From the NCBI RefSeq assembly GCF_029392815.1, contig NZ_CP113942.1, forward strand, positions 1,426,001 through 1,490,000: DNA of 64,000 bases, read 5' to 3'. This document shows positions 9,034-22,306 of the stretch, in pieces. Under the pieces are notes generated by a model that ran no database searches, was not told where the DNA came from, and was given only the letters and a program-made list of their open reading frames with translations. Source of the DNA: Bifidobacterium sp. ESL0682. GTDB lineage: Bacteria > Actinomycetota > Actinomycetes > Actinomycetales > Bifidobacteriaceae. Both the position numbers and the translations under genes were made by a program. The stretch's first letter is position 1, and each line of letters opens with the position of its first letter.

Positions 9034-10233
9034 TCACTTGATAATCGGACGCAGCGGGGCCGAAACGTCAACCTGATGTTTATCGCCGATCTTGGTGGGG
9101 TCGTTGATGATTTTGTCGACCACGGCCTTCTTGAGCTTCATGTCGGAAGCGTCGCCCCAGACGATGACGCGCTGCCCGCCGTTGAGCTCGGTGGTGATGG
9201 AATCTTGGGTTTTCGCGCTCACTTTGGTGATTGAGGCACGCATGTCGTGCGGTAGCAGGTTCAGCACCTTGAGCGCCTGCTGAACGGAACGGTCACGAAG
9301 GCTGGTCTGAACGTCGTCCACTTCGATAACCGGGATGCCATCGGCGGAGACATTGCCGACCTTGTTGAGCACTCGCCCGTAACCGTCCACGGCCGTTTCG
9401 GTGTTATCAGGAGTCTTAAGCATCGCCGCAGGCTCTTGTGCCGTAATGCTGACTTTCAGACCTTTGGGATAGGTCTTGTCGACCTTGGCCTTCGAAACGC
9501 CGGGAATGTTTTTGAGTTCCTGTTCCACATCATTCGAAGACACTAATAACAGCGATTTGCCAGCCTGCTTGTCGGCGATGGAAACAATCTGAGATTTGCC
9601 AACCCATTGATTTTCCCCGGAAACCGCAATCTGGTGTGCGTCAAGCCGAAACAGAGGCGAGAAAAACAGCGTCCACGACAAGGCGACAATCACGGCCACA
9701 ATCAGCAACGCCACCAACACCCGAGTCGTCATCTTCCAAGCGCTTATCCGACGCCGTTCCTTGAGACGGGCGTCAAAATCAATGACTTTCGGACGCGAGG
9801 CAACACCAAGCGGACCGGCAGTCTGCTCCAATGTTTCGCCGACCAGGTCCTCGTCCTGCAATTGCCTAGCATCTACAAAACCACCAGGAGTGCTTTTGGT
9901 CGCCGCTGCCCCAGACCTTGCCGAGCGTGCGGTTCTTGGAGAACCAGCATTCCCGCCATCTGCCAGAGGTTTGTCAATCCCGTATTGGCGCTTGGATCGG
10001 CGACGACGGGACACGCTGACGGACTTGCCGCTATGTCCCGTTTGTTTGCCGATGGTCGCTTCTGCAGACGAAGACGATGAGCGGACCGATGAACGACGCT
10101 TGCGCCCGCTGCTCTTCCCTGTCTTTTCGGAACCGGAACGAGTGGAGTCTGATTTCACGGAACGCGGCTGACGCGACCATTCGTCATGGTCGGCATCATG
10201 CCGTTTCCCGCTGGTGATACGTCGGCCGCTCAT
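9034..10233 (-). CDS. ftsQ: Cell division protein FtsQ
   Basis: Bitopic divisome protein linking FtsL/FtsB to the septal machinery. It is 399 residues long: a cytoplasmic, Ser/Arg/Lys-rich N-terminal extension of about 165 residues, one membrane segment (about 171-191, RVLVALLIVAVIVALSWTLF), then an extracytoplasmic POTRA domain and beta domain starting near LDAHQIAVSG. The long basic tail is much larger than in E. coli FtsQ. Its ATG overlaps the murC stop by one base (TGATG), so it is translationally coupled. It is the last gene of the dcw cluster; a hairpin follows at 8924-8963. Confidence 0.92.
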   Translation of the reverse strand: MSGRRITSGKRHDADHDEWSRQPRSVKSDSTRSGSEKTGKSSGRKRRSSVRSSSSSAEATIGKQTGHSGKSVSVSRRRRSKRQYGIDKPLADGGNAGSPRTARSARSGAAATKSTPGGFVDARQLQDEDLVGETLEQTAGPLGVASRPKVIDFDARLKERRRISAWKMTTRVLVALLIVAVIVALSWTLFFSPLFRLDAHQIAVSGENQWVGKSQIVSIADKQAGKSLLLVSSNDVEQELKNIPGVSKAKVDKTYPKGLKVSITAQEPAAMLKTPDNTETAVDGYGRVLNKVGNVSADGIPVIEVDDVQTSLRDRSVQQALKVLNLLPHDMRASITKVSAKTQDSITTELNGGQRVIVWGDASDMKLKKAVVDKIINDPTKIGDKHQVDVSAPLRPIIK

Positions 10234-11838
10234 CAGCGCAACTCTTTCGCTCGGTCTTTGAGCTGCGAAAGCATAACATCGTCCATGGCGGTGACATCAC
10301 CTGCGCCGACGGTAATAAGGACATCTCCCGGCCGAGCGTGACGGACCAAGGTTTCAGCACCTTCTTGAAGATCCTTTGACGTGGCGATCCATCCTTGAGC
10401 CGGAGCATGCGCCAACGCGGCGGCAGCATTCACAATAACCTGCGAGGTGACCTCCGGGAAATCCTCCTGCCGCTCACGGGCCGGGAAAATAGGCGCGATG
10501 ACGACATCATCGGCCTTGGCGAGCGCCGCTGCGAATCTGTCAGTAAAGAACTTGGTGCGGCTGAAGAGGTGAGGCTGGAAGAGCACGCGGATGGTTGAAT
10601 CGGGATAACGACGACGGGCCGCATCAAGCAAAGCGGCGATTTCCGTGGGATGGTGCGCATAATCGTCGACCACCGTCACCCCGTCTTCCACGCCGTTGAC
10701 CTCGAAGCGTCGCGAGGCTCCCTTGAACGTGGAAGCCGCACGCGCGGCGAGCTCGGGATCCATGCCCAGCAGCGTCGTGGTGATGATGGCAGCAGTCGCA
10801 TTGCGCGCGTTGTGAATGCCGGGAACGCGAAGCGTGACGGAGACACTGCGTTCCTCGCTGCAACCGGCGAACCCTGCCGGGAACGCGATGGTGAAACGTT
10901 CCGTCCCATCCCCGGCGCTCTCCTGCTCCGAGAGAATACGAACGAGTTGCGGCTGACCGTCAGAACCCGCGATTTGCGTGATGTCATCCGTTGCCTGCGT
11001 GGTATAGCAGATTGTTCTAGCTGCCACGTCGGCCGGCAATGCACGCACGATTGCCTGCGCTCCCCGTCATCGACGGACATGATGACATGGCCTTTGGCAT
11101 GACCGGCATACTGCACGAAAGCCTGCTGGTAGTGTTCGGCATCGCCGTAATGGTCGAGGTGATCGGCTTCGGCGTTGGTGATCAGCGCGAACTGCGGACG
11201 GTATTTCTCGAAACTGCCGTCGGATTCGTCGGATTCGGCCACAAGTACATCACCATGGCCGGCGTGCCCTCCATCGATCGCCACCCCGTCAGGGCCTTGA
11301 ATCGATCCACCGATGGCATAGCTGGGGTCTGCCAGTTTCACTGCGGCACTGGTTCCCGATTGAGCATCGGCCTGCCCCCGGCGTTGACGAGAATATGGGA
11401 AATCAGGGAACTGGTGGTCGTTTTGCCGTGAGCTCCGGCAACGCTAACCGCACATTTCGCAGCCATCAGGAGCGCCAGAATGTCACTGCGGTGGACGATA
11501 TGGGCTCCAGCATTCGCCGCTGCCACGATTTCGGGGTTGTCCGGCTTAATAGCACTGGAGTAGACGACGGTCTGCGCGCCCTCGACGTTTTCAGCGCGTT
11601 GTCCGAAATAGACCTTGACGCCCAACGCAACCAGACGGTCAGTCTTGGCATTGGCCTCGCGATCAGAGCCGGAGACCTCGACGCCCTCTTCGTGAAGCAT
11701 CTCGGCGAGCACGCTCATGCCCGCGCCGCCGATACCGATGAAATGGGTACGCCCAAGCGATGCCACCGTCTCCGTGGGACCGAACGCTGCGACCGTCGGA
11801 TCAAGCACGATGGATTCAGAGCTGGTTGTTGACTGCAC
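10233..11838 (-). CDS. murC: UDP-N-acetylmuramate--L-alanine ligase, two frameshifts in this sequence
   Basis: First amino-acid-adding ligase of peptidoglycan synthesis; joins L-Ala to UDP-MurNAc using ATP. The start is GTG 11836-11838, with AAGGAG 7 nt upstream. The composite product is about 535 residues: N-terminal UDP-binding domain with FIGIGGAGMS, P-loop VAGAHGKTTT, central DHLDHYGD, and a C-terminal domain with VVDDYAHHPTEI. The frame is lost in the CCCCC run 11375-11379 and again in the CCCC run 11062-11065. One added base at each gives NAGGQADAQSGTSAAVKLADP and SVDDGGAQAIVRALP. The enzyme is essential, so both are almost surely sequence errors. Confidence 0.92.
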
Positions 11839-12071: not shown

Positions 12072-13240
12072 TCACGAATTCCTGTCAGCCATGTCAAGCA
12101 CCACTGCGGCCATGGTCTCTGCGGCATCGCGCATGCCATAGCCATAAGCCTTGTGGCCCATGGCCTCGAGCCGTTGGCGGTCGGCCAGAAGCGCCGGCAC
12201 ATGCTCACGTACCCATGTCGGCGTGAAATCATCGTCAACAACCATCAAACCGCCTCCGGCCTCAACCACCGGCTGTGCGTTGAATCGTTGCTCACCATTG
12301 CCGATGGGCAACGGCACATAGACCGCAGGCATGCCGATGGCCGCCAGCTCGCTGACGGTGCCTGCTCCGGAACGGCAGACCACCAAATCCGCCGCAGCGA
12401 ATGCCAGGTCGATGCGTTCCAGATATTCGGCAATATGATAATCGCCTTGCCCTGCATGGGCCGGGTCAAGGTCGGTGATGACCTGCTCCCCACGTTTTGC
12501 GCCACACGTCGGCGCACATCGTCGCTTTTCTTCCGACCAGTCAGATGGATGACCTGGGTGACATCGAGCAGCTGGGCCGCCGCATCGCTGACCGCCTCGT
12601 TAAGACTCACCGCTCCCAACGAACCGCCGGTGACCACCATCAACGGGCGATTGGGATCGATGCCCAGCTGACGTGCGGCTTCTTGACGAGCCAACGACTT
12701 GTTCTCTCCGAGCTTCCGGCAAAGATCGGCCATCACCGGGCGCAACGGCAGCCCAACCCGGCGTATTTCCGCGCCGTTACGAACTTTAAGGCCGGTGCCA
12801 TCGTAAGCGGTGCCAATGAACGAGGCCCAACGTGCGCCGAGCTTGTTGGCCATACCGGCACGAGCGTTCTGTTCGTGGATGACAATAGGCAAGCCCATCG
12901 AGTGTGCCACGGTGTAGACGGGAGCCGATACATACCCGCCGAAACCGACGACCACATCGGCCTGACGACGCTGCAGAATCTCACGGACCTTCTGCTGTTC
13001 ATGCTTCCAACGGCCGGGAAAGCGCAGCGCCTGCATATTGGGGCGCCGAGGAAAAGGAACCTTGGCAATGGTATCGAGCTCAAACCCTGCCTGTGGCACC
13101 AAATCGTGTTCAAGCCCGACATCTGTGCCGATAACGCTCAATGCGGCTTGTGGATCGGCGCTTTTGATGGCAGATGCGACGCTGAGCAACGGGTTGACAT
13201 GTCCGGCGGTTCCACCGCCGGCCAGTACGATATGTTTCAT
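12072..13240 (-). CDS. murG: UDP-GlcNAc:undecaprenyl-PP-MurNAc-pentapeptide GlcNAc transferase, one frameshift
   Basis: Membrane-associated GT-B glycosyltransferase that converts lipid I to lipid II. The composite product is about 389 residues. The N-terminal glycine-rich loop [10 protein letters not shown] is at residues 8-17 and IHEQNARAG follows. The C-terminal donor site includes TGGSLGA and [14 protein letters not shown]. The start is taken as ATG 13240: AAGGA lies 8 nt upstream of it but abuts the earlier ATG at 13249. The frame breaks in the CCCC run 12488-12491. One added base restores [17 protein letters not shown] and the C-terminal domain to the stop at 12072. It lies between ftsW and murC; the 233-bp gap to murC shows nothing recognisable. 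Confidence 0.92.
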
Positions 13241-13277
13241 TCCATTCATCCTTGCTTGTTCACATGCAACAGCGCGT

Positions 13278-16235: not shown

Positions 16236-17338
16236 CTAGATCAAAAGACCGGTGCGTGACGCCCAATCCGTATAGAAGATGACCAAGCCGATGAGCATGA
16301 ACATGAATTCGATCATCCAGAAGCGCACGACGACCTTCTGCTCGCTCCACCCCATCAGTTCAAAATGATGGTGAATCGGCGCCATCTTGAAGACGCGCTT
16401 GTGGGTGAGCTTGAAGCAACCGACCTGGATGATGTCGCTCGCCACCTCGATGACGTAAAGACCGCCGAGAATGATGGCGAGGAATTCGGTGTGTGTGGCG
16501 ATGGAGAGGGCTGCGAAAAGCCCGCCCAGAGCCAGCGATCCGGTGTCACCCATAAAGATGGTGGCCGGGTTGGAGTTGTACCAGAGGAAGCCGAAGCAGG
16601 CCACGGCAGCACAGGCGGCAATGATCGTCAAGTCCAGCGGGTCCGAAACCGCATACGAGTAACCGGGCTTCGGGCCGCCTTTGACGTGGTAGCTTTCCCA
16701 GAAGGCGATGATGGTGTAGCCTGCCAGGGAGATCATCGAGGAACCCGTGGCGAGTCCGTCAAGTCCATCGGTCAGGTTGACGGCGTTGGTCCATGCAATC
16801 ATCAGGAAATTGACCCAGATGACGAAGATGACAATGGCAACGGCCTTGCCGGCGAACTCGAAGCTGAAGAACGGATGCTCGATGAAGCTCATGCCTGCTT
16901 GTGCCGAAGGAAATCCGGATTTGGTGGGGATCAGCAGCGCCAGCACCGCGTAAATGGTCGCGAAGACGAACTGGCCGAAGAATTTACCGCCAACGCTCAA
17001 CCCTGTATTTTGCTTTTTACGCACTTTGGCGAAGTCGTCGATGAAGCCCAAAGCCCCCATCGACACCATGGCGAAGAGGACCAGAACGGCCGACCATGAC
17101 ACACTCTGCCCGCCAGTCAAGCCGCGATAAAGCGCCGAAGCCCCCATCCAAGCACCACTGCGAAGATGATGACCACGCCGCCCATCGTGGCGGTACCGCG
17201 CTTCAGAAGATGCGATTGCGGGCCGTCCTGACGGATATACTGGCCGTAATGCAACCGGTGAACCAGTCGAATCATGGCTGGCGTGCCGACCATCGTGACC
17301 ACGAGCGAGACCACGATGCCGATGATGAGGGAAATCAA
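16236..17338 (-). CDS. mraY: Phospho-N-acetylmuramoyl-pentapeptide-transferase, one frameshift
   Basis: Polytopic membrane enzyme that makes lipid I by transferring phospho-MurNAc-pentapeptide to undecaprenyl phosphate. The composite product is about 367 residues with ten predicted membrane helices. Catalytic motifs are present: [23 protein letters not shown] and [15 protein letters not shown]. The start is best placed at TTG 17336-17338, which overlaps the murF stop by 2 bp and gives the usual short N-terminus ([10 protein letters not shown]). The frame breaks in the CCCCC run 17141-17145. One added base gives [15 protein letters not shown] across the junction. Essential gene; a deletion error is the likely cause. 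Confidence 0.92.
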
Positions 17339-18945
17339 TGTTTCGGCTCCACTTCTGTAGGCTGTTGCGAAGAGACGTGCGCCCAATGCTCGGCCAAGGC
17401 GGAAAGTCCCGAAATATGGGAGCCTTTGAGCAGCACGACGGTATTAGGATGCTGGTGGGCTATTTCGGCAACCAACCGATCAGCCTGACCTGCACTATGT
17501 ACCCATTGCACCACGACGGGGGTACGCAAATCACTGTTGGACGCACCGGCAACAGCACTCGGAGCGGCGTCTTGGCCCAATTCCTCTTGGGCCCCTTGTG
17601 CCAAGGCCGAGGCCAGCTCATCAAAATGCTGGTCCGTCTTGTTGCCCACGGCGATGATCTCGTCGATGCCCAGCGAGGCGGCATAAGCTCCGGTCTGTCG
17701 ATGCAGCTTCAATTCGTCGGCACCGAGCTCCAGCATCGCGCCAAGCACGGCGACACGATAAGGTTTCGCAGCATTTGCGGCGGACGTACCAGCCTCGGAT
17801 TCTTGAGGATTACCGTTGACCTGCCAGCGAGCCAAGCCATCCAAACCGGCGCGCATAGAGTCGGGATTCGCATTGAAGGAATCGTCAATCAGTGTGAAAG
17901 AATCCTCGCCATCACCGATTTGGGAGACGGCCATACGATGCGGGCTGATGTGCGCGACTTCACCCAGCCCCTCAGCAATATCGTTTAGCGACATTCCAAA
18001 ATGCCGGGCGACCGTGGCCGCTGCGAGCGCGTTCATGACATTGTGTGCACCGCCGATGCCCAAATGCACCAAGGCACGGGAACCATCGGTATCTACCAAT
18101 GTGAAGCTCGGACGGTCCAAGGCGTCTACCGTGACAGCTTCTGCGCTCATCCTTGTGGCATTCGGCTGTGCGTCGCCGTCAAGTCCGAACCACAGCACGT
18201 CGCCCGGAGCAAACTTGGTCATTGCCGCCACATGTTGATCGTCGGCATTGAGCACGGCGATGCCTCCAGGCACCAGACCTTGCACAATCTCGCTCTTGGC
18301 CTGGGCGATGCGTTCCACGGAACCGAACTCCCCCAGATGCGCCACACCGACCTTCAGCACCACGGCCAGGTCGGGAGGCACGATGCTGGTGAGCTTCGCG
18401 ATTTCACCGACATGGTTGGCCCCCATCTCGGCGACAAAGAACCTGGTGCGCTCCCCAACTTTCAACGCCGTCAGCGGCAGACCGATTTCATTGTTGAACG
18501 AGCCGACGGGAGCCACGGTCTCGCCAAGCTTCGCCATCAATGAGCGCAGCAAATCCTTGGTGGTCGTCTTGCCGACGGAACCGGTGATGCCGATTACCGA
18601 AAAATCCGCGCCCAGCTCACGGCGACGCTCAATATTATGCTGTGCCAAACCGCCCAGCGCCTGCACCGTGTCGTCAACCTCGATTTGCACGATATCGTCG
18701 GCGCCGTCCACAACGTGGTCGACCAGCGCAGCGACCGCACCTTTCTGCGCAGCACCGGCCACGAAATCATGGCCGTCCACCCGTTCGCCGGGAATGGCCA
18801 CAAACACCGAACCGGCGCGAATCTGCCGGGAATCGCTCACGGTCGAGGTGGCCACCGGCCCCTCCGGCACAGCGCAAGCGGCACCGGCCACCAGACGCCC
18901 GCCGACCGCTTCGGCAATCTCCGCGACCGTCATCGGCATCATCAT
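17335..18945 (-). CDS. murF: UDP-N-acetylmuramoyl-tripeptide--D-alanyl-D-alanine ligase
   Basis: Adds D-Ala-D-Ala to the UDP-MurNAc-tripeptide, the last cytoplasmic step of precursor synthesis. It is 536 residues from ATG 18943-18945, which has AAGGGG 8 nt upstream. An alternative TTG at 18984 also has a good site (AAAGGAG, 8 nt). The P-loop [12 protein letters not shown] is at about 119-130, with the MurF-type [12 protein letters not shown] after it, and [11 protein letters not shown] in the C-terminal part. A stretch after [13 protein letters not shown] and another near [12 protein letters not shown] look like low-complexity insertions in the C-terminal domain. It overlaps mraY by 4 bp. Confidence 0.94.
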
Positions 18946-18997
18946 GCCGGTTTCCCCTTGCGTCCCGGCCTTGTTGTCGTCCAACCTATGCGCTCCT

Positions 18998-19084: not shown

Positions 19085-19972
19085 TCACTGCATCTCCTTC
19101 GAAACGCGCAGGGCATTGCGAATATTGCTGCGGCGCACGCCGGCGTCCATCGCCATCGCAATGGCCAGCGAAAGTCTGCGCTGCCCGTCCAGATTGCGAA
19201 TCACCGCGGTCTGGCCTGCAAGCCAACCGGATTCCTCGTTGCAGACGACTAGATGCTTGTGCTCGTCGATCGAAAAACCATAACGCTGCTGAACTTCGTC
19301 AAACATCCGTTGAGAACCGGCCTTATCCAACGGCTCAATGGACCCGAGCACATCGACATTGACACTTTCGAGCGCACCCGGTCGCAGCGTCTGCCTGTCC
19401 GCCGAAATCACCATGGCCGCAGCCCCGTCCTCGGAACAGACGGCGAGCATGTGCTGGATGTCGAATATTCCCAGAGGATAGGTCATGGCGAGTTCACGTT
19501 CCAGCGAACTCGAGCCGGAAGCGCTGACAATGCCTACCGGATTGCCAAGCATGTGCAGAAAATCAGCCAGACGCACCACATCGGCCTGGTTCTCTTCATC
19601 GTCATCACCACAGACGACGAACACGGCCATCGTATTGGCCGGCGTTCCGGCGATGTCGGCTGCCAAAGCGCCAATGGTGGCCTTGCTCGGTGTGGCCAGC
19701 AGCGCGGGAACCCCTGCGGATTGTGCCAGAGCTGCCATCGAAGGCGGCACGAGCACGGCGTAGGCTCCCCGACTCACTGCAAAATTAAGCAAAGAGGATT
19801 CCTCGATATCCTGAAGAACATAAAGTGCTCCCGGACGAACGGAATCAGGGGTGTCGGCGAGAGAAGTAACCGTGACGCCATCGGCGAATCCAGGTTCAAG
19901 ATCGAAGCCGTAATGGCTGGCGATGTACCCCAGGGTCACACGCCGTGAAATCGACTCACTTACCGCACTCAT
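19085..19972 (-). CDS. MurE-like protein lacking the ATP-binding P-loop
   Basis: A 295-residue protein in the position where murE usually stands (between ftsI and murF). Its N-terminal part resembles the MurE UDP-binding domain: VTLGYIASHYG, VTSLADTPDSVRPGALYVL, then AVSRGAYAVLVPPS and the PALLATPSKATIGALA stretch. Where the ligase P-loop (GTNGKTT) should follow it reads VCGDDDEENQ, so ATP binding in the Mur-ligase manner is not expected. The C-terminal ligase domain is absent or unrecognisable. The chosen ATG (19970-19972) follows AAGGACGTAAGG. It may be a non-catalytic scaffold or regulator of the pathway; the resemblance is by eye. A functional murE must lie elsewhere. Confidence 0.72.
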   Translation of the reverse strand: MSAVSESISRRVTLGYIASHYGFDLEPGFADGVTVTSLADTPDSVRPGALYVLQDIEESSLLNFAVSRGAYAVLVPPSMAALAQSAGVPALLATPSKATIGALAADIAGTPANTMAVFVVCGDDDEENQADVVRLADFLHMLGNPVGIVSASGSSSLERELAMTYPLGIFDIQHMLAVCSEDGAAAMVISADRQTLRPGALESVNVDVLGSIEPLDKAGSQRMFDEVQQRYGFSIDEHKHLVVCNEESGWLAGQTAVIRNLDGQRRLSLAIAMAMDAGVRRSNIRNALRVSKEMQ

Positions 19973-20035: not shown

Positions 20036-21834
20036 TCACCACGACACAGGAATAGCACCAGTACGCGGGGCCGAGGCCGGGACTTCGTACTTCTGCATAA
20101 GGAATTCACCGATTTGCTTGAACAGCGTGCCGCTGGTGAGGCCACCATATATGCCTTGCGGATTCTTCATCGCCACCGTGACCACGAAACGAGGATTGTC
20201 GGCGGGCAGGATGCCGGTGAAGTCACCGACGATGCCATCAAGCGCGCCACTGGGGCCCGCTACCTGCGCGGTTCCGGACTTGCCGGCGATACGGTAGCCG
20301 TCGATGCCGGCTGTCCTGTGATATTCCTCGGCGGCGGATTCCATGGCGTTCATCAATTGCGCGTCGGCGTTCGGGTCGAGGATGCGAGTGCCTTCGTCCT
20401 GAGGCTGGTTGATGACATGCCCATTAGCATCCGTGGTCGAAACGACGATCGACGGTTTGCGATAGATGCCGCCGTCGGCGATGGTGGCGATGGCATTGGT
20501 GAGCTGGAGAATGTTGGTGGCATAGCCCTGTCCGAAGAGGATCGTATCGCGCGTACGTTTGTCCCACGCCTTGGGATTAGTAAGCGTTCCGCGAGACTCG
20601 CCCGGAAGGTTGAGGCCGGTGGGCTGTCCGATGCCGAACTTGGTAAGCATGTCGTAGCGGTCCTGATCCTGGTAATTGTCGGAAGCCATCACCATGCCGA
20701 CGTTGGAGGACTGCTGCAGAATGCCGGCCAACGTCCAGTTGGAAACCGCATGCGGCGAGGAATCGGTGAAGATCTGGTTGTTCTTGTTCAGATGGTCCGG
20801 AACTTGGAACTGGTCGGTCATCTGATGGATGCCATGCTGCAAGAGGCCCGCCATCGAGAAGGTCTTGCCAATCGAGCCGGGTTCGAAGGTCTCGGAGACA
20901 GCACGCGAGACATTAAGTTTGGCCTGATCGCTACCGGCCTGAATATCATCGGAATCGTCAATCGCGATGATCTGGTGCGTGCGTATGTCCTCGACGCAGG
21001 CCACCGCCCAATCCGCATGATACTGCGCCTTGCCTTGGGTGAGTACCTTCTTGACGTACCAATCAACATCCGAGTCGATGGTCAATTTCACGTCACTGCC
21101 GTTCTGGGCGGCTTTGGAATCGGTCAACGTGCCGGGAATCTCGACGCCGTTGTTGCCTTGCTGGTAGATCTTGTAGCCATCGGTGCCGGAAAGTACCTTG
21201 TTCTGCACCTGCTCCATGCCCGAAGCGCCATTGACCTGAGCATCGACGCCGCCAAGGAACGCGCCGAGCAATGTGCCGTCGGAATAGACGCGGTTCTGCG
21301 AAAGCTCGCCGTAGACGATGCCGCCAAGATCCAATTTGTCAAGCTTGCGCTTGGTAGCCGGCTCAACGTCTTTTTCAGCACGACATAACGGCCGGAAGTC
21401 GCGAGCTGACCACCGAGTTCCATGGCGTCCATACCCAGTATCGGGGCAATCATTCTCGCCACACGCGCGGCACCGACCACACCGATGGTTTTGCCTCCCT
21501 GGCTTTTCGGCTGGGTGCAATTATTGGTGACCTGCTTGCTGCAAACCGGCTCATAGGCCTGGGCCGCTTCGGGGTCACCGATGATGGTGTAGCGTTCCAC
21601 GCTTTGCGCAAGCACCGCACCGTTGGTATCAAGAATCTTGCCGCGCATCGCGTGCACCGGCACTTTCAGCGTGCGGCCCGCCGTGGCGGCCTCGGCCATG
21701 GAACGCCCATTCAACAACTGAATGTTGGCCAATTGTCCAAAGCAAACAACGAAAACAATCGCGAGCACCGTCCCGATGACGGCGCAACGCGATACGAATT
21801 GTTTGGCTTTGGCATTATCGGCAGGTGTACGCAT
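20036..21834 (-). CDS. ftsI: Septal peptidoglycan transpeptidase FtsI (class B PBP), one frameshift
   Basis: Membrane-anchored D,D-transpeptidase that crosslinks septal peptidoglycan with FtsW. The composite product is about 599 residues: short cytoplasmic tail, one membrane helix (AVIGTVLAIVFVVCFGQL), PBP dimer domain, and transpeptidase domain. The catalytic SxxK is EPGSIGKTF (near residue 316), SxN is QSSNVGM (near 374), and the third motif reads KSGTAQ rather than KTG (near 520). The start ATG (21832-21834) follows the upstream stop by one base. The frame breaks in the TTTTT run 21371-21375. One added base gives VVLKKDVEPATKRKL across the junction. No PASTA domains follow. Confidence 0.92.
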
Positions 21835-21835
21835 G

Positions 21836-22306
21836 TCACTGGCCTTTGCTCGTCGGTGTTTGTTGGCTTGGCGGCGCCTGATAACCTTGCAAATCAATGG
21901 AAAGTGGCCCTTGCTGAGGCACCATGCCCATCTTCTGGGCACGATCGGGCAGGCTGGCCTGCAGGCTGTCGAGTTGAGCCTGATCGTCTTCCACGTCCTG
22001 GTTCAATTTGCTGATGTTCGACTGTACCTGCGCCTGTTCGAAGGAATTCTGCACCATCTGCGTACGCAAAGCCAGAGAGCCCAGCAACGATGCGAAAAGA
22101 AAGACCACGGCAATGACGATATGCACCACCGACACCGTTTTGATATGGCTGAAAATGCCGAAGGCGTCGCGGGCTTTGTCTTTATCTGCCTTGCCACCGG
22201 CAACAACCTGGAAGCGAGGACGCGAGGAGATTGCATGATTGTCGTCTTCACGTCCGGCAGGCGCCACATGGGAACGAATCGATCTTGCGTTTGCACTGCT
22301 GCTCAT
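21836..22306 (-). CDS. FtsL-like cell division membrane protein
   Basis: A 156-residue bitopic protein with a hydrophilic N-terminus of about 55 residues, one membrane segment (about 58-78, VVHIVIAVVFLFASLLGSLAL), a short coiled coil (NSFEQAQVQSNISKLNQDVE) and a Pro/Gln-rich tail. This architecture and its place between rsmH and ftsI fit FtsL, which joins FtsB and FtsQ in the divisome. Sequence identity in FtsL is always low, so the call rests on topology and synteny. ATG 22306 has AGGAGG 5 nt upstream and overlaps the rsmH stop by one base; an ATG at 22309 is the alternative. Confidence 0.8.
   Translation of the reverse strand: MSSSANARSIRSHVAPAGREDDNHAISSRPRFQVVAGGKADKDKARDAFGIFSHIKTVSVVHIVIAVVFLFASLLGSLALRTQMVQNSFEQAQVQSNISKLNQDVEDDQAQLDSLQASLPDRAQKMGMVPQQGPLSIDLQGYQAPPSQQTPTSKGQ

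Follow-up and report, generated by a model that had tools for sequence, protein, structure and literature searches.

A degenerate MurE homologue, predicted to lack ligase activity, is conserved between ftsI and murF in Bifidobacterium

MurT, of the MurT/GatD amidotransferase, resembles Mur ligases but has a different role, and it retains the ATP loop. It has long been asked whether the soluble Mur enzymes act as a single assembly; since the components are essential as catalysts, this is difficult to test. According to the available text of two papers, PAP11 is a plant MurE homologue found in the plastid RNA polymerase complex (PMC12681378, PMC9456514), and the available text of a third describes the MurE and MurF of Bordetella as one polypeptide, which binds MurG (PMC6420597).

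The protein described here, which we call pseudo-MurE, is encoded in the dcw cluster of Bifidobacterium sp. ESL0682. The window, that is the whole stretch of 64,000 nucleotides that was analysed, corresponds to C1:1426001-1490000 of the 2.09 Mb genome. An earlier note on this DNA had read the gene as an intact, catalytically dead Mur ligase with its own ribosome site, held in a conserved place between ftsI and murF. The features of the locus, in window coordinates, are as follows.

19085..19972, minus strand: the pseudo-MurE gene, whole open reading frame with stop, 295 amino acids
19982..19988, minus strand: Shine-Dalgarno-like AGAAGGA, 9 nt before the pseudo-MurE ATG, read from the sequence
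17335..18984, minus strand: murF, the constant downstream neighbour (TIGR01143, 368.8 bits, over the cut-off)
20036..21942, minus strand: ftsI, the upstream neighbour, in two overlapping frames in the ESL0682 assembly and with homologues in relatives

The pseudo-MurE frame runs from an ATG at 19972 to the stop at 19085 with no internal stop, and its start position is Met in 83 of the 86 genus rows of the alignment. Together with the Shine-Dalgarno-like sequence, this agrees with the description of an intact gene with a ribosome site of its own. The start of murF is a TTG after AAAGGAG, picked by eye. Past murF, the dcw order in the window is mraY, murD, ftsW, murG, murC and ftsQ; the neighbours are named from reading of the open reading frames and from their use as queries, murF alone having been scored against family models.

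Several genes in this assembly are split. Within the window murC (10233-11838), murG (12072-13249) and ftsI each lie over two to three overlapping frames, and outside it the same is true of murE (L003 1135-2681) and of a murT-like gene that carries GTNGKT (L004 473-2178; named by eye). This looks like sequencing frameshifts and not real decay. Because several genes of the window are frameshifted, the idea was raised that pseudo-MurE is just a murE disrupted in this particular assembly. It was ruled out by the distribution of the gene, which is present in all 112 genomes of the genus, with no stop inside the matched stretches; it is therefore general in bifidobacterial genomes, as the earlier reading required.

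The position is equally constant. All three of ftsI, pseudo-MurE and murF are present in 86/86 genus loci read (83 genomes), and the order ftsI - pseudo-MurE - murF, with all genes in the same orientation, was found in each of the 50 genus loci checked (49 genomes), which bears out the conserved place between ftsI and murF. Fusion to MurF or FtsI was considered and dropped: the frames of 657 or 976 amino acids in which some relatives lie are read-through, with ftsI and murF matching separate frames, and the 50 genus loci examined contain no fusion of pseudo-MurE with murF.

A Pfam search of pseudo-MurE gave no matches, so the case for homology is built on NCBIfam, a sequence search of the PDB, and profile comparison. 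In NCBIfam the MurE/MurF model matches with E 6.5e-7 and TIGR01085 with E 1e-4, both far under their cut-offs (for TIGR01085, 21.3 bits against a curated cut-off of 257.3). The PDB search finds the plastid MurE-like PAP11 (E 3e-6) and M. tuberculosis MurE (E 3e-5). Profiles of 29 genus pseudo-MurE, 20 full-length MurE of the order and 15 working MurE of the family were then compared using hhalign. Pseudo-MurE is closer to MurE of the same order (E 1e-13, probability 98%, residues 9-213) than to the working MurE of its own family (E 4.8e-5, 68%). By segment, the N-domain provides the bulk of the signal (E 3.3e-11), while the middle core alone (E 0.0019, 14% probability) and the C-terminal helices alone (E 0.0011, 20%, onto MurE columns 350-376) are weak but collinear. 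On these sequence comparisons the resemblance to MurE is beyond chance. The strings on which the earlier note relied (TLGYIASHYG, SVRPGALYVL, SRGAYAVLV and VCGDDDEENQ) are all present in the protein, and the likeness to the MurE N-domain that it saw in the first three holds in the profile-profile comparison. A scan of viral contigs for relatives of pseudo-MurE found none.

The domain map of the protein, again in window coordinates, is as follows.

19637..19972, minus strand: residues 1-112, MurE N-terminal (UDP-binding type) domain fold, by hhalign and VIA-align, with the DSR and HGA positions lost
19334..19636, minus strand: residues 113-213, degenerate core of the Mur ligase middle domain, collinear by hhalign and weak by VIA-align
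19586..19612, minus strand: residues 121-129, CGDDDEENQ, aligned with the MurE ATP loop TGTNGKT
19538..19558, minus strand: residues 139-145, LHMLGNP, with invariant residues in genus and family rows
19238..19333, minus strand: residues 214-245, variable linker, where about 100 residues of the MurE middle domain (the carbamoyl-lysine region) are deleted
19085..19237, minus strand: residues 246-295 and stop, conserved C-terminal helices, roughly the end of the MurE middle domain by hhalign

The protein stops where the MurE middle domain ends. The whole C-terminal ligase domain is missing, as had been claimed, its near-invariant columns being gaps in 21-24 of 24 rows. The earlier picture of a MurE N-domain stands as far as that domain goes, but was incomplete in that a degenerate middle domain, with its internal deletion, also follows. 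The linker of ten rows from the genus (nine genomes) and three from the family carries inserts of 30-117 residues, often Ser/Asp-rich, after the equivalent of residue 215 (for example in L047, L048, L232, L247 and L130).

Structure prediction agrees with this map to different degrees in the two halves. The full-length model has a pLDDT of 56 overall, with blocks of 70-85 over residues 11-100, and is poor past residue 110. The top Foldseek matches are MurE (E 3.6e-6). By VIA-align, the modelled N-domain (residues 6-111) matches MurE of M. thermoresistibile (8g6p) over 105 residues with Z 14.4 and rmsd 2.1; the N-domains of LpxD, which have a similar fold, come next at Z 12.4. Because the full-length model is poor beyond residue 110, residues 106-295 were modelled alone, giving a pLDDT of 62.7. 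The ten leading VIA-align rows for this model are all E. coli MurE, being one protein in ten entries, with Z 7.3-7.9 over MurE residues of approximately 107-337, and the best (Z 7.9) has an rmsd of about 4. They are followed by an unrelated APS kinase at Z 6.8, which is in the tool's 'common' range, and by M. tuberculosis MurE at 6.6. With the same residues, no Foldseek match reached E 0.001, and the top rows of that search are unrelated. The structural match of the middle domain is modest and in line with the sequence alignment. The comparison of the predicted fold with MurE, which the earlier note had proposed as a check, therefore gives a Mur ligase match for the N-domain and a weak one for the second half. 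That pseudo-MurE is a degenerate MurE without the C-terminal domain is well supported.

There are 103 near-invariant MurE columns, defined as at least 90% invariant in 26 MurE of the order, and only 15 are kept in the consensus of 24 pseudo-MurE. VCGDDDEENQ does align with the ATP loop TGTNGKT, as had been suggested, and the first Gly is all that is left of the loop; GxxGK[ST] occurs in 0/103 pseudo-MurE rows (86 genus and 17 family). MurE E232, which we take to be the Mg-binding Glu, is replaced by A, S or G. The TT motif, which we take to be T207-T208, is YP in most rows, and R242, presumably the substrate Arg, is A or S. The column of K274, taken here as the carbamoyl-lysine, is a gap in 22/24 rows. 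DSR and HGA (98-100) are also replaced; these, with T207, T208 and R242, are assumed to be the substrate-binding residues. From this pattern pseudo-MurE is predicted to be without ligase activity. The label of a dead Mur ligase would thus appear to be apt, since judged from its sequence the protein has no recognisable catalytic site, the ATP-loop, Mg-binding and substrate positions being replaced or deleted.

Pseudo-MurE resembles MurE (TIGR01085) in its N-domain fold, its probable middle-domain fold, its profile similarity and its slot between ftsI and murF, and differs from it in the loss of the ATP loop, the catalytic residues, the C-terminal domain and about 100 residues of the middle domain. 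PAP11 (8qma, 8r5o), which is the best PDB sequence match, offers the parallel of a MurE descendant reused as a subunit. However, it keeps GTNGKT in the PDB-search alignment, is much longer, and works on RNA polymerase and not on wall enzymes. The Bordetella MurE-MurF fusion (8f5d) couples MurE and MurF physically and binds MurG, indicating that an assembly of this kind can exist. In the fusion both halves are active and form one polypeptide, whereas pseudo-MurE is apparently dead and is a separate protein. MurT differs in having kept the ATP loop that pseudo-MurE has lost.

The gene extends beyond the genus. In the family Bifidobacteriaceae, 52/61 sampled genomes were matched and 49/61 carry pseudo-MurE, as G115, G140 and G151 were matched through full-length MurE only and are not counted as carriers. 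All 41 family genomes with completeness of 90% or more and contamination of 5% or less have it. Twelve genomes do not, namely four of genus g4, four of g5 and one each of g9, g10, g14 and g16; since these genomes are 57-89% complete, some of the absences may be gaps. Nine of the 61 (g4, g5 and g10) apparently do without pseudo-MurE and have a full-length MurE of another branch, so the gene is not indispensable to the whole family. Six of these nine have murF immediately after ftsI; in the remaining three, the stretch read shows no ftsI beside murF. In the family loci that have pseudo-MurE, ftsI lies upstream in 15/17 and murF downstream in 17/17.

A profile search across the order matched 64/119 genomes, nine of them Bifidobacteriaceae. 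Outside the family 55/110 were matched, always in open frames of at least 431 amino acids, which is the length of MurE, and this search saw the short form in none of the 110. Full-length MurE occupies the same slot in the order, with ftsI before it and murF after it in 35/41 loci (36 genomes); in the remaining six, one or both neighbours are missing from the stretch covered or did not reach the score required. Within the genomes sampled, the short form is thus a trait of Bifidobacteriaceae that sits in an inherited murE slot.

The real murE, which the earlier note had suggested looking for elsewhere in the genome, is indeed there and belongs to another subfamily. A working MurE of NCBIfam group PRK00139.2-3 is found in 111/112 genus genomes, the exception (G079) being 78% complete. 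Two that were tested score 846.9 and 968.2 bits, against a cut-off of 762. In ESL0682 its position is 10-12 kb ahead of the start of the window, where it spans two reading frames. The best NCBIfam model for two MurE tested from the order is PRK00139.1-2. A third MurE type, PRK00139.1-4, is seen in genome G143 of genus g7 (L092, G143:C4:396348-397742), which has kept pseudo-MurE. The variety of types suggests that MurE was replaced more than once in Bifidobacteriaceae. The available text of PMC11707648 states that Ancillula alone among termite-associated Bifidobacteriaceae has retained DAP synthesis, a point of possible relevance to the change of MurE type; pseudo-MurE is absent from that part of the paper.

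In a tree of 74 rows (24 pseudo-MurE, 26 order MurE, 12 working MurE, 8 others and 4 MurF), pseudo-MurE forms one clade (100/100) on a long stem of 2.3 changes per site. It joins the order MurE at 90/77, at an unstarred node. An AU test does not reject grouping with the family's own working MurE (p 0.243). Tree, profile similarity and synteny, taken together, argue for descent from the native dcw MurE.

On the basis of these observations, we hypothesise that pseudo-MurE serves the cytoplasmic Mur enzymes, and most likely MurF, as a scaffold or allosteric partner, a proposal to which we give about an even chance. Its ancestor would be the native dcw MurE. In the ancestor of most Bifidobacteriaceae, catalysis would have been handed over to a MurE from a different subfamily, with its gene at another place, and the old MurE would then have been stripped of its ATP and substrate sites, of part of the middle domain and of the C-terminal ligase domain, while being retained for a non-catalytic role; this is the order of events that we infer. 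The retained surface may still dock on its old partners in a cytoplasmic Mur assembly, MurF first, and the docked protein would hold or tune MurF, and perhaps also MurG, MraY or the new MurE. The outcome would be that UDP-MurNAc-tripeptide is handed efficiently to the pentapeptide step. We are somewhat less inclined to believe the stronger version, in which a displaced native MurE has become a near family-wide pseudo-Mur-ligase that serves as a dedicated structural or allosteric subunit centred on MurF, and is maybe essential.

A protein-binding role is argued for by the loss of both the nucleotide and the substrate positions. Regulation or scaffolding of precursor synthesis, as put forward in the earlier note, is the most likely role in view of the genomic context, the lost positions and a covariation of evolutionary rates that is confounded by linkage. 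Across 20 genomes, the partial r of pseudo-MurE distances is 0.746 with murF, 0.645 with ftsI and 0.146 with the working MurE. When mraY is added instead (50 loci) the values are 0.463 for murF, 0.434 for ftsI and 0.115 for mraY, and with mraW (26 loci) they are 0.612, 0.536 and 0.018 for murF, ftsI and mraW respectively. Adjacent pairs that do not involve pseudo-MurE reach a partial r of 0.416 (murF-mraY) and 0.353 (ftsI-mraW), so neighbourhood alone yields values of this kind. The covariation is weak support, because pseudo-MurE has murF and ftsI as its closest neighbours, scores almost the same with ftsI as with murF, and evolves fastest.

Many pseudoenzymes pair with active paralogues. Pseudo-MurE could thus be the dead subunit of a pair, acting as allosteric partner of the relocated working MurE, which is likewise of the MurE family and co-occurs with it in 111/112 genus genomes. 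We think this rather unlikely, in that the rate covariation between the two is weak (partial r 0.146), although the working MurE is unlinked and sometimes duplicated, and in that genome G143 has kept pseudo-MurE despite having a MurE of a different type.

Seven residues, namely L139, H140, G143, N144, P145, E181 and G183, are invariant in all 86/86 genus and 17/17 family rows. The whole LHxLGNP stretch was at one point taken as new, and this was dropped as L139 and residue G143 are common to MurE; E181, G183 and D207 are also common to pseudo-MurE and MurE. This leaves H140, N144 and P145, which are invariant in 103/103 pseudo-MurE rows and not conserved in MurE. They might be central to a newly acquired function, small-molecule or enzymatic, that has nothing to do with Mur ligation. 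However, none of the known catalytic motifs was recognised in the protein, and its invariable association with murF points to the wall pathway, and we consider such a function unlikely.

Since pseudo-MurE lies directly after ftsI (50/50 genus and 15/17 family loci) and has a partial r of 0.645 with it, it might couple precursor synthesis to septal FtsI/FtsW. The genomes of genus g13, of 0.6-0.9 Mb, make this quite improbable: 7/7 searched carry pseudo-MurE, whereas FtsI gives no match in 4/7 and only weak matches (E 7e-7 or worse) in 3/7, and FtsW gives only distant FtsW-type matches in 6/7 and none in 1/7. Both g13 loci read (L128 and L135) have pseudo-MurE between mraW and murF. In addition, pseudo-MurE has no membrane segment that could be recognised by eye, while FtsI is mainly extracytoplasmic. 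The g13 dcw cluster (L128, L135 and L207) is without ftsI, and in L207 also without ftsW; pseudo-MurE is kept beside murF.

Pseudo-MurE diverges fastest of the three genes, with a long-range mean distance of 0.709, compared to 0.424 for murF and 0.445 for ftsI. This, and the fact that the g4, g5 and g10 relatives apparently manage without it, would be expected of a slowly decaying relic, kept only since the operon needs translation through the stretch. Such a relic should not be constrained, yet the median dN/dS of pseudo-MurE is 0.137, similar to murF (0.146) and ftsI (0.117), in 27 non-overlapping pairs out of 348 with dS 0.1-1.0 in pseudo-MurE and murF. Values for pseudo-MurE of up to 0.859 arise in distant pairs only (dN 0.535 in that pair). 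In distant pairs murF and ftsI are raised too, to 0.442 and 0.561, and dS is probably underestimated in distant pairs of high dN/dS. Pseudo-MurE is under purifying selection, about as tight as that on its working neighbours. A relic is very improbable given this constraint across the genus, the absence of stops from the matched stretches in 112/112 genomes, and a slot that can be empty, as where ftsI directly precedes murF in 6/9 g4, g5 and g10 genomes, so that the gene is not needed as a spacer. A precursor sensor that still binds UDP-MurNAc peptides, for which the UDP-binding type of N-domain fold might speak, is likewise very improbable with MurE DSR, HGA 98-100, T207, T208 and R242 all replaced.

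The gene is thus conserved and intact, with a dN/dS well under 1 and its catalytic residues lost, which is the pattern of a pseudoenzyme under selection. Because the active site is lost and yet the protein is preserved about as tightly as its neighbours, it is probably a structural or regulatory partner. If the proposed MurF-centred role is correct, an enzyme whose catalysis had been taken over by a different subfamily was kept because its scaffolding role was irreplaceable, and pseudo-MurE would be a lineage-specific wall factor of Bifidobacterium and most related genera. In the old MurE the chemistry has gone and selection continues, and nature has seemingly separated the two roles; loss of pseudo-MurE should therefore report on scaffolding or regulation alone.

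No published account of pseudo-MurE was found by title and start of abstract among the matches listed, and a report in print is possible. The available text of a B. breve TraDIS study (PMC5514069) gives 453 essential genes, of which 53 are hypothetical, and does not name pseudo-MurE. Expression of a B. adolescentis murE is reported in the available text of PMC12795277. It is worth adding that the working MurE is present as two near-full-length copies side by side in 15/112 genus genomes (for example G028:C1:1698977-1702161, G006:C1:716187-719352 and G065:C2:262508-265715), and the paired copies could differ in amino-acid specificity.
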